Assembly (NCBI RefSeq): GCF_011799805.1 | Contig: NZ_WXUB01000003.1 | Location: forward strand, 186,001 to 250,000 | Direction of reading: 5' to 3' | DNA: 64,000 bases | From: Maribellus sediminis | Lineage (GTDB): Bacteria > Bacteroidota > Bacteroidia > Bacteroidales > Prolixibacteraceae | Shown: one piece after another, positions 42,157 through 48,105 of the stretch | How positions within the stretch are numbered: the stretch's first letter is position 1 | Layout: each line of letters begins with the position of its first letter | The notes under the pieces: model-generated | Seen by the model: the letters and a program-made list of their open reading frames with translations, nothing else | Told to the model about the DNA's origin: nothing | Databases searched by the model: none | Translations under genes and position numbers: made by a program

Positions 42157-42610
42157 TTATTCAAACCAAAGGTATTTCTCATCAAACTCGATTTCATACT
42201 TTTTCAGAAAAAGCAAATATTCTTCCTCGAACGACATCTTCTTGTGGTGAATATCCTGTTTCTAATGTATTCTTTTGTCCTCTGATGAAGCGAAGAACTC
42301 ACCGAAAACCGGCATAACCACCTTGCCAACTAAAATTCAGATAGTGTCTCCCTTTAGTTTTTATCCATCTACTGCTGTGTCTTTTAATTTCTTCAACAAG
42401 CTTCGATAAAGCAATATTTTTCGACATAACACAAAGTATATGTACATGGTCCTTTACGCCATTTATAAGAATGGGAATCGAATCGTTATCCTTTATAATA
42501 GCTCCCATGTATGCAAACATTTCATCCCGTTCTTCATTTCTTATGAAAGCCATCGGATTCTTGATTCTAAAAATAATGTGTACAAATAATTTCGATAATG
42601 ACTGTGACAT
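42157..42610 (-). pseudogene. REP-associated (IS200-like, Y1) transposase, two frameshifts
   Basis: The open frame 42299-42610 gives the N-terminal 103 residues of a RAYT/Y1 transposase: 'LFVHIIFRIKN', 'AYMGAIIKDNDSIPILING' and the HUH motif 'VKDHVHILC', ending 'GGYAGFR'. The rest lies downstream in other frames. After adding one base to the T run at 42305-42308 it reads 'FSVSSSLHQRTKEYIRN', which contains the expected catalytic Tyr. A second missing base near 42258 is needed to reach 'QDIHHKKMSFEEEYLLFLKK' and 'YEIEFDEKYLWFE' with TAA at 42157-42159. The intact protein would be about 150 residues. Both shifts look like single-base deletions, so the gene should be inactive. Confidence 0.85.
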
Positions 42611-45878: not shown

Positions 45879-46733
45879 ATGATCGTGAAAAAGATATTGG
45901 ACCTAACATTGTCACTACTGATAATTGCACTGTTAGCCATTCCGGCAGTTGCAAAGCAATCCGATTCAAATAGTGATTATACTGCTAAACAAAAGAATCC
46001 TCAGTCGCAGTGGACGGGTAAAAAAGTGGCCTTTTTAGGCGATTCGATGACGCAGAAACGCGACAGTGCCATCCGGGTTTACTGGGAATACCTCGCCGAC
46101 CTAATGGGAATAGAACCATTTGTTTATGGAATAAGCGGCAACCAGTGGGACGGCATTTACCGACAGGCGCAAAAGTTGAAACAGGAAAGGGGAACCAATA
46201 TCGACGCCATTCTGATTTTCGCGGGAACCAATGACTACAACCACAACATTCCTCTGGGGAATTTCTACAACGAAACTGCCAAAGAAACCAACTTTAACGG
46301 AACCACGGTTACCCGAAAGTACCGGACTCTGATCGAAAATGACAGCACTTTTTGTGGCCGTATCAACAAGGTGATGGCTTTTCTAAAATCGAATTATCCC
46401 GATCAGCAAATTGTGATCATGACACCGATTCACCGGGGATTTGCAAGCTTCAACGAAAGAAATGTACAGCCCGAGGAAAGCTTTTCGAACGACCTTGGAC
46501 TTTACATCGACAACTATGTGAAGACTTTAAAAGAAGCCGCTTCGGTGTGGGCCGTTCCTTTGATCGATCTCTATTCGACCAGCGGACTTTACCCGATGCT
46601 GGATTCAAATATCAAGTATTTCTCGAACGCCGAAACCGATCGTTTGCATCCCAATTCGGCCGGTAATTACCGATTGGCAAAAACTATTCAATACCAGTTG
46701 CAGGCGCTGCCTGCTGATTTGGTAGAGGAATAA
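45879..46733 (+). CDS. Secreted SGNH/GDSL hydrolase
   Basis: The 284-residue protein has a signal peptide of about 26 residues ('LLAIPAVAKQ'). The SGNH blocks are clear: block I 'VAFLGDSMTQ' with catalytic Ser near 56, block II Gly in 'VYGISGNQWDG', block III 'IFAGTNDYNHN' and block V 'DRLHPNSAGNYRLA' with catalytic Asp and His. The family includes lipases and carbohydrate acetyl-esterases, and a role in removing acetyl or acyl groups from polysaccharide or lipid is inferred. It is a single gene, and a long hairpin follows the stop. Confidence 0.88.
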   Translation: MIVKKILDLTLSLLIIALLAIPAVAKQSDSNSDYTAKQKNPQSQWTGKKVAFLGDSMTQKRDSAIRVYWEYLADLMGIEPFVYGISGNQWDGIYRQAQKLKQERGTNIDAILIFAGTNDYNHNIPLGNFYNETAKETNFNGTTVTRKYRTLIENDSTFCGRINKVMAFLKSNYPDQQIVIMTPIHRGFASFNERNVQPEESFSNDLGLYIDNYVKTLKEAASVWAVPLIDLYSTSGLYPMLDSNIKYFSNAETDRLHPNSAGNYRLAKTIQYQLQALPADLVEE

Positions 46734-46750
46734 ACTTCTCCAACGCCTAC

Positions 46751-46806
46751 AAAAAAGGATGGCATCCGTATGTGAATCAAATCAAACGGATGCCATCCTT
46801 CTTTGT
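46751..46806. terminator. 15-bp hairpin, bidirectional terminator
   Basis: AAGGATGGCATCCGT (46756-46770) and ACGGATGCCATCCTT (46786-46800) are perfectly complementary across a 15-nt loop. The minus-strand side runs into a six-T tract, so it can end the dnaE-trxA-DUF58 transcript; the plus-strand side (CTTCTTTG) is weaker and would serve the SGNH gene. The TGCCA in its right arm is in phase with the adjoining 41-bp array. Confidence 0.7.
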
Positions 46807-46823
46807 AACATCATTTCTTCCGA

Positions 46824-47041
46824 TGGCATTTTGCCATTGGCTATACGGATAAAAAGTGGAGTTATGGCACTTTGCCATTGCCCTTTCAACACATAAATTA
46901 AGCCGTGGCAGGTTGCCAAAGGCCGAAGTACGGAAAAGTAGAGCTATGGCAAGTTGCCAAATGCCGAATCACGGATAAGTGGAGCCGTGGCATTTTGCCA
47001 ACACGTCAAGTAGCAAAAATCCGGATTGTGGCATTCTGCCA
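46824..47041. repeat. Six-copy 41-bp array of palindromes TGGCA-N3-TGCCA
   Basis: Thirteen-base palindromes start at 46824, 46865, 46906, 46947, 46988 and 47029, spaced by exactly 41 bp each time. Centre triplets are TTT, CTT, GGT, AGT, TTT and TTC. Spacers 1, 3 and 4 share GG/GCC, ACGGA and GTGGAG/GTAGAG, whereas spacers 2 and 5 differ. The array fills a 424-bp gap (46734-47157) that has no gene. It would be transcribed as the 3' tail of the DUF58 operon. Confidence 0.9.
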
Positions 47042-47157
47042 TTTATAAATAATCATTCAAGAAATAGAAATTGTAACTTCCGCCCAACCGATATTGATAA
47101 ACGATAGTATTATTTTGAAGTAAGGTAAGCAAGTAGAAAACCAGGTATTTGGTCGAA

Positions 47158-48105
47158 TCAAAACAGCTTCTTCCTTTTTACAAGGTACGAAAACAGCACC
47201 TCTTTAAAATCTTTGTTTATATCAGCTTCGGCGAGGTCGATCTGGTACTGTCCACATTTAATTTTCAGGTCTTCGAAATATTCGCTTACCGTTGAAACGT
47301 AGTGTTTTTTTACCTCCCAGGGATTAAACTTCACCACCTGCCCGCTTTCGAGGTCAACAAACTTATGCGGACGGTTCGAGAATTCGAATTCGCGTTCGAG
47401 CGAATGATCGGTAACATGAAAAAGAATAACCTCGTGTTTGTTGTAACGAAGGTGTTGAAGTGCAGAAAACAATTCGTCGGTCTTTTGGCTGTCGAGCATG
47501 TCGCTGAAAATGATTACCAGCGAACGTTTGTGAATGTTCTCGGCAATCTGGTGCAACACCTCGGTTGTGTTTGTGTTTTTTCTTAAGTGCGCGTTCTCGG
47601 GCTGAATCAGTTCCGACAGCTTGCCGTACATAATCTCGGCATTTACTGACGAGATACGTGGATTGGTTTGAAATTCGATTTTATCGGAGAACAGTGTCAA
47701 TCCAACGGCATCGCGTTGTTTACGCATCAGATAAATCAAGGCTGCAGCAGTGTACACCGAAAAAGCCAGTTTGTTGTGCAGGTGCTTGCTGCCTTTCGAA
47801 TAGGGGAACAACATCGACGAAGAAGTATCGATAACCAGCTGACAACGCAGGTTAGTTTCCTCTTCGTATTGTTTTACAAAAAGCTTGTCGGTTCGCGCAT
47901 AAAGTTTCCAGTCGATATGTTTGGTCGATTCACCCTGGTTGTAAAGGCGGTGTTCGGCAAATTCAACCGAAAAACCGTGAAAGGGACTTCGGTGCAAACC
48001 CGTGATAAATCCCTCCACTACCTCGTGGGCGATCAGTCCAAGATTATCGAACTGGTGAAACTGCTCTATGTCGAATATATTCTTCAAAGCATTAAATGAA
48101 TTCAC
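47158..48105 (-). CDS. DUF58 domain protein
   Basis: The 315-residue protein has the DUF58 core: 'VVEGFITGLHRSPFHGFSVEF', 'YNQGESTKHIDWKLYARTDK' and a von Willebrand A-like metal site 'VIDTSSSMLFPYSKG' at about 93-107, with later 'SLVIIFSDMLD'. DUF58 proteins usually accompany MoxR AAA+ ATPases and are thought to act in chaperone-like or metal-insertion modules. No MoxR gene is visible here. The start is probably GTG 48105, which is within the 3' arm of a perfect hairpin; a TTG six codons later is an alternative. It follows trxA on the same strand, 58 bp away. Confidence 0.85.
   Translation of the reverse strand: MNSFNALKNIFDIEQFHQFDNLGLIAHEVVEGFITGLHRSPFHGFSVEFAEHRLYNQGESTKHIDWKLYARTDKLFVKQYEEETNLRCQLVIDTSSSMLFPYSKGSKHLHNKLAFSVYTAAALIYLMRKQRDAVGLTLFSDKIEFQTNPRISSVNAEIMYGKLSELIQPENAHLRKNTNTTEVLHQIAENIHKRSLVIIFSDMLDSQKTDELFSALQHLRYNKHEVILFHVTDHSLEREFEFSNRPHKFVDLESGQVVKFNPWEVKKHYVSTVSEYFEDLKIKCGQYQIDLAEADINKDFKEVLFSYLVKRKKLF

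Follow-up and report, generated by a model that had tools for sequence, protein, structure and literature searches.

The sopC site of plasmid F is described as an array of twelve tandem repeats of 43 bp, containing ten inverted repeats of 16 bp to which ParB_F binds (PMC6238139, PMC9178275). In type III toxin-antitoxin loci, a repeat array is reported upstream of the protein gene, and the repeats are specific to the toxin (PMC5086642). BrickBuilt of Porphyromonas gingivalis is presented as an intergenic minisatellite inside a MITE, with a 23-nt unit, a leader and a tail (PMC4596501). REP elements linked to RAYT transposases are described as palindromes tagged at one end with GTAG or CGTC, and CRISPR repeats as being 24-48 bp long (both PMC3733652).

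The window, i.e. the whole stretch of 64,000 nucleotides of Maribellus sediminis DNA that was analysed (positions 186,001 to 250,000 of contig NZ_WXUB01000003.1), contains six palindromes of the type TGGCA-N3-TGCCA at an exact period of 41 bp (46824..47041). A pattern scan located all six dyads, free of mismatches, at the starts claimed in an earlier, sequence-only reading of this DNA: TGGCATTTTGCCA (46824..46836), TGGCACTTTGCCA (46865..46877), TGGCAGGTTGCCA (46906..46918), TGGCAAGTTGCCA (46947..46959), TGGCATTTTGCCA again (46988..47000) and TGGCATTCTGCCA (47029..47041). The dyads themselves have no orientation, and the array is assigned to the minus strand, on which its spacer consensus (CGSCTYCACTTTTY...) reads. 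When one mismatch is allowed, the window contains seven dyad matches versus 1.77 expected, a number reached in none of 100 shuffles. In addition, a sequence-agnostic scan for at least three perfect 5-bp palindromes with centres of 3-5 nt, at any period from 16 to 100, had the window array as its sole match in 864 kb taken from this genome and a congener.

The array occupies the 424-bp gap between a gene encoding a GDSL-like lipase/acylhydrolase (45879..46733, plus strand) and a gene encoding a DUF58 protein (47158..48105, minus strand), so that both genes converge on it. Between the GDSL gene and the first dyad lies a 25-bp inverted repeat (46748..46807), whose arms are 92% complementary and 10 nt apart, and which is probably the terminator of the GDSL gene. 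It includes a TGGCA half-dyad in register with the 41-bp spacing of the array, and an Rfam search of positions 46000-48000 returned only five sub-threshold microRNA models, all on this inverted repeat. The only flanking repeat pair at the array is the 10-bp near-repeat TTGTAAC(A/T)TC, present in direct order. None of the listed open reading frames of at least 80 aa runs across the array, and coding repeats, dismissed in the earlier reading, do not fit. CRISPR had likewise been set aside, rightly, as the repeat is 13 bp long and the five spacers are interrelated, being 44% identical versus 26% for shuffled spacers. Elsewhere in the window, a short ORF (42299-42610, minus strand) matches the Y1_Tnp (IS200-like) profile without reaching its end.

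In the whole genome (5.6 Mb), TGGCA-N3-TGCCA occurs 17 times and a control pattern, read backwards, twice. Eleven of the 17 dyads fall in two arrays, of six and five dyads, both at exactly 41 bp. A dyad at chance frequency and without other phased arrays would have spoken against the sequence-only reading; instead, the dyad is enriched and a second 41-bp array exists. A pair pattern permitting 39-43 bp detected only 41-bp pairs, nine in this genome and one in a congener, i.e. in two of 61 genomes. The second array, on contig C8, precedes a DUF6261 (PF19775) gene (C8:612807-613244) and starts about 140 bp before its ATG.

The dyad arms are identical in all 11 dyads of the two arrays, while the 28-bp spacers drift, as had been proposed: in the C8 array spacer identity is 31.5%, versus 25.5% when shuffled (p 0.05). 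The spacers of the window and C8 arrays, compared in the same orientation, are 36.6% identical versus 26% shuffled (p 0.0003), and those of the window array also contain a weak oriented consensus that had been overlooked. Spacers 1 and 4 of the window array have two words in common, ACGGATAA, whose position differs by 3 bp, and GTGGAG, whose position does not, at equal total length. The identical arms, the drifted spacers and the shift of a word at constant length indicate that arms and length are held and the rest drifts, and the period does look constrained, as the earlier reading suspected. The window array therefore matches the DUF6261-linked C8 array in arms, period and spacer consensus. 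The genome contains two DUF6261 genes (C7:562991 and C8:612807), and tblastn with four DUF6261 proteins over the whole window found none beside the window array. Lacking such a neighbour, it can be called an orphan and, judged from these sequence comparisons, it very probably belongs to a DUF6261-linked family of arrays. The same genome also contains what is by eye a degenerate intergenic array of GCCCC...GGGG dyads with 21/42-bp spacing (L382:13600-13930, contig C5 at about 113600-113930).

Within the genus, taken here as the one holding Maribellus and Draconibacterium, TGGCA arrays were found at up to two mismatches in two of 36 congeners, Maribellus maritimus 5E3 (G011) and G031. Both are located elsewhere in the genome, and a position in the 3' tail of the dnaE-trxA-DUF58 mRNA, as envisaged for the window array, is thus not general for that transcript. 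The two congeners share an orthologous array of five units each; free variation of copy number and spacing between relatives would also have spoken against the sequence-only reading, and it was not seen here, the count being equal, although a single 1-bp deletion breaks the spacing in G031. Between these arrays the arms differ by one substitution in 49 positions plus a gap and the spacers by 12 in 140, so the arms are not clearly better kept. In other species of the genus, the spot downstream of the DUF58 gene contains unrelated tandem repeats of 20-22, 32, 41 or 42 bp (L348-L350, L369, L371).

The C8, G011 and G031 arrays are all located upstream of DUF6261 genes, and their other neighbour genes differ. 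Because DUF6261 is what these loci have in common, DUF6261 loci were sampled widely. The gene is present in 26 of 37 genomes of the genus, with up to ten copies each, and in four of 198 genomes drawn from the class, the source genome included; positive genomes contain 1-15 copies, and Saccharicrinis has 15. We retrieved 95 loci, which are part of a larger number of DUF6261 places found in profile searches, and determined for each which lag from 10 to 63 gave the strongest autocorrelation in the 630 bp preceding the gene, with gene positions taken from HMM matches. Six loci were left uncounted, four for having no in-frame ATG (L422, L437, L459, L462) and two for short upstream DNA (L424, L469), and L471 was kept despite a stop codon inside its HMM match.

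The top lag was 40-43 at 82 of the 89 counted loci: 32 of 35 in the first set, 10 of 14 in the second (G096 and Saccharicrinis) and all 40 of a held-out set. With at least 55% identity required, 74 loci remained (27, 7 and 40, respectively). Among 548 control ORFs of at least 150 aa, taken from the window and 800 kb of this genome and G031, the top lag was 40-43 in 33 and reached 55% identity in two, one of which (on contig C5) resembles, by eye, a further array. A first look, with approximate gene starts, had given a lag of 41-43 at 32 of 36 loci and of 41-42 at 12 of 17. The held-out loci, which were picked by HMM score (60-86 bits) before their DNA was read and are not a random sample, show 60-97% identity over 100 bp at top lags of 40-42; the array period is 41 in 32 of them, 42 in six and 40 in two. 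Four of the seven loci lacking a top lag of 40-43 are from Saccharicrinis. An array is therefore present directly upstream of most sampled DUF6261 genes.

At the held-out loci, the distance from the end of the array to the start codon is 58-466 bp (median 160). Promoters of Bacteroidetes resemble a box of the type TTG-N20-TAAATTG, and at many loci such a promoter-like box, or TAACTTTG, can be recognised by eye between array and gene. The phasing of the last dyad relative to this box gave a p value of about 0.03 at 10.5 bp, with approximate gene starts, and 9.0 bp fits equally well. About 0.8-1.1 kb upstream of the DUF6261 genes of L443 and L455, we observed repeats with a period of 51-52 bp, about five helical turns, containing GGTGC-N-CTGCACC-like palindromes. 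Repeats with helical periods are not over-represented overall in the 84 kb of intergenic DNA examined, which gave 11 regions of mixed periods. The name DUF6261 came up in a single one of the papers searched, and a literature search for such arrays, judged from titles and the starts of abstracts, brought up no account that we recognised.

Many of the arrays are palindromic. The consensus units of the 40 held-out loci have a palindrome score of 5.24 versus 3.63 when shuffled; 19 are palindromic at p<=0.05, 21 are not significantly so, and four have no palindrome of at least 4 bp. In another set, with approximate gene starts, 18 of 31 arrays beat all 40 column permutations. Paralogs of one genome carry different palindromes, for example in G006, G032 and G243 (approximate gene starts), although private palindromes are not a strict rule, since the G014 paralogs L488 and L495 have nearly the same unit. 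Where the DUF6261 protein shares 74-75% identity with that of C8, the consensus unit and palindrome of its array are different. In ten between-species pairs, the arrays accumulated 225 substitutions and 25 gap events and the flanks 530 and 146. Of the array gap events, 17 occurred in one pair, L491/L497, whose arrays differ, and in six of the ten pairs the array has no gap at all. Array length thus appears to be held better than flank length, in a sequence contrast that is approximate because some loci recur, gene starts are approximate and flanks may include non-homologous stretches.

Arrays of this kind are not confined to the genus. At up to two mismatches, matches were found in six of 140 genomes of the family, of which those in G079 and G132 were rejected as chance-like single pairs. 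G096, of another genus, has 41-42-bp arrays along which the palindrome varies (TGGCG..TGCCA, TCATTAAATGATGA, TGAAGATATCTTCA) and the spacer is still recognisable. Two other arrays in G096, with no DUF6261 gene in view, have the palindrome and spacer of that genome's DUF6261-linked array; since both end at contig breaks, beyond which a DUF6261 gene may lie, the window array alone counts as a clear orphan of this type. In G267, of another family, six contigs carry arrays, each with a period of 41 bp, in a dispersed element with flanks common to the loci. These arrays (L093, L109-L113) have from two to about 16 units, with varied and compensated palindromes, and the copy L111 ends in the inverted sequences AGAGGTTGTTTAAA...TTTAAACAACCTCT. 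The element resembles a minisatellite inside a MITE.

Among the matches listed for named genomes, Saccharicrinis aurantiacus has an array at 40 bp, and the period is 41 bp in two unclassified Bacteroidota and 21 bp in another two; matches in Leyella run across stretches of N and were discarded. Two Bacteroidota MAGs carry 21-bp tandem repeats around TGGCA-N3-TGCCA or near variants (L202:3406-3573 and L177:7000-7330). Pairs of TGGCA dyads at 31-51 bp, with many periods, are among the matches listed for cyanobacteria, Planctomycetes and others, and an array in Moorena likewise has a 41-bp period; dyad and spacing are therefore not unique to this clade. A covariance model, R1, searched over 393 genomes of the order (E<=0.01), matched 12 genomes beyond the source genome. 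Ten of these (all except G458 and G519) were viewed at the match, and G267 was the only one with a 41-bp palindrome array; the others resembled, by eye, coding DNA or single hairpins. The R1 match in G458 adjoins a 42-bp tandem repeat with the palindrome GGGTATTTACCC (L087:4891-5003), and no DUF6261 was found there. Nor was DUF6261 found in the array-bearing genomes G267, G458, G721 and G723-G725.

The DUF6261 protein itself is predicted to consist entirely of helices (pLDDT 87.6). The model has no match in the PDB at E<=0.001 (Foldseek) and no recognisable DNA-binding fold. No other Pfam family scored above its cut-off in four DUF6261 proteins, three of the proteins had no match in PHROGs, PADLOC or NCBIfam, and the C8 protein (P0001) had none in phage and plasmid collections.

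Of the options raised by the sequence-only reading, a set of phased sites for a dimeric DNA-binding protein appears to fit these observations best. A DNA platform is favoured by the recurrence of one period with unrelated units, by its closeness to four helical turns and by the holding of length in evolution. Dimers would bind the dyads, and a spacing of 40-42 bp, about four helical turns, would place them on one face of the helix, where several could join in a single cooperative complex, in the manner of SopB on the 43-bp sopC repeats. Upstream of a DUF6261 gene, such a complex might regulate that gene, and the window site between the converging genes could offer the C8 protein a second place to bind. 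As a whole explanation, an orphan of the DUF6261-linked family acting as phased dimer-docking DNA is the reading towards which we lean slightly. That the mechanism operates at the level of DNA, i.e. that the array acts as a double strand, is a distinct possibility, to which we give somewhat less than even weight.

The palindromes differ within one genome, so one shared sequence-specific regulator cannot read all of them; the simplest binder would be the DUF6261 protein of the same locus or a dedicated partner of that protein. The linkage and the mostly private palindromes make DUF6261 the obvious candidate, and yet we regard it as a rather unlikely one. Counting against specific binding, proteins that are 74-75% identical would have had to follow changed units, which seems fast; the all-helical model gives no informative match, and arrays occur in genomes where DUF6261 was not found. 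More tentatively still than a DNA-level mechanism, Bacteroidota might possess self-specific DUF6261-array modules, up to 15 per genome, in which each paralog would read its own array, the palindrome would be swapped while spacer and period stay, and orphans would serve as remote docking sites.

One alternative is that the arrays are selfish or neutral minisatellites, spread by slippage and mobile elements, with hairpin-templated repair keeping the palindromes and the DUF6261 link being mere hitch-hiking. The arrays of G267, with as many as about 16 units, in a dispersed element with shared flanks and in one copy inverted ends, speak for this explanation, and the minisatellite option of the sequence-only reading holds in part for such relatives. 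It also gains from the DUF58-downstream spot, where the window array is absent in 36 congeners and other species of the genus have the unrelated tandem repeats mentioned above. Hairpin repair, however, would keep palindromes and not one arm sequence over two loci with drifted spacers, and sequence-identical arms at two loci of a genome point to specific recognition instead. Moreover, arrays have fewer gaps per substitution than flanks, the 40-43-bp period recurs with unrelated units, and the difference between DUF6261 loci (74/89) and control ORFs (2/548) is not due to chance. We therefore consider the minisatellite explanation unlikely. The C8 array has a Y1_Tnp gene at a distance of about 1.1 kb and the window array has the short Y1_Tnp-match ORF at 4.2 kb, which would suggest mobilisation as REP elements by a RAYT/IS200-like transposase. 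However, neither a GTAG nor a CGTC tag is present beside the six dyads on either strand, the order is direct rather than inverted, and 11 of the 17 genomic dyads lie in just two arrays. In addition, by eye no Y1_Tnp-like ORF was noticed beside the G011 and G031 arrays, and neither Y1_Tnp ORF is flanked by the palindromes, the DUF6261 gene sitting between the Y1_Tnp gene and the C8 array. This origin is most improbable.

An explanation at the level of RNA would be a system like the type III toxin-antitoxin loci, in which the array is transcribed and cut into 41-42-nt RNAs that neutralise the neighbouring DUF6261 protein, with the window array as a stray antitoxin-like copy. It is a serious rival because of the layout, repeats followed by a gene, with repeats that are toxin-specific: tandem repeats lie directly upstream of a gene for a protein of about 240 aa, and genomes contain several paralogs, mostly each with its own repeat. 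The orientation of the spacers relative to the gene is, moreover, alike in the few related loci compared by eye. Nevertheless, a simple scan for a hairpin plus a T-run found a terminator between repeats and gene at none of 40 loci, and the promoter-like box seen by eye at many loci between array and start codon would place the array outside the transcript of the gene. The predicted all-helical fold and the absence of PADLOC and NCBIfam matches for three proteins also count against this possibility, which we judge to be quite improbable, even somewhat more so than a minisatellite.

For a gene family of unknown function, the helically spaced array upstream, usually of a sequence of its own, is a first strong lead, and the DUF6261-linked arrays point to an undescribed protein-DNA or RNA system. 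They raise the questions of whether each protein, or an array RNA, recognises only its own array, and of what a chromosome gains from up to 15 such pairs, and they offer a natural series of dyads for specificity change at fixed spacing.

The REP/REPIN elements share with the window array the intergenic location of palindromes, whereas the window dyads have no GTAG/CGTC tag, do not form inverted dimers and follow each other in direct 41-bp tandem order. BrickBuilt resembles the G267 arrays as tandem repeats in a dispersed intergenic element; its unit, however, is 23 nt, the string "palindrom" does not occur in the main text of PMC4596501, and inverted ends were observed in G267 alone, not at the window array. 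Type III systems (ToxIN, TenpIN, CptIN) share with the DUF6261 loci (82 of 89) a repeat array upstream of one protein gene, unlike the window array, which has no DUF6261 gene beside it. The DUF6261 arrays differ from these systems in that no terminator was found, many have palindromic dyads, orphans occur and the protein model is all-helical; as regards a ToxN-type fold, the model had no significant Foldseek match. The sopC site is like the window array in having a period of about four helical turns and one dyad per unit. Inspection by eye of the ORF lists around the arrays revealed no ParA-type gene, and the gene to which the array family is linked is DUF6261, the window array itself being without this neighbour. 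In contrast to sopC, the DUF6261 arrays are chromosomal, belong to many paralogs with mostly different dyads, and are located upstream of DUF6261 rather than of ParB.
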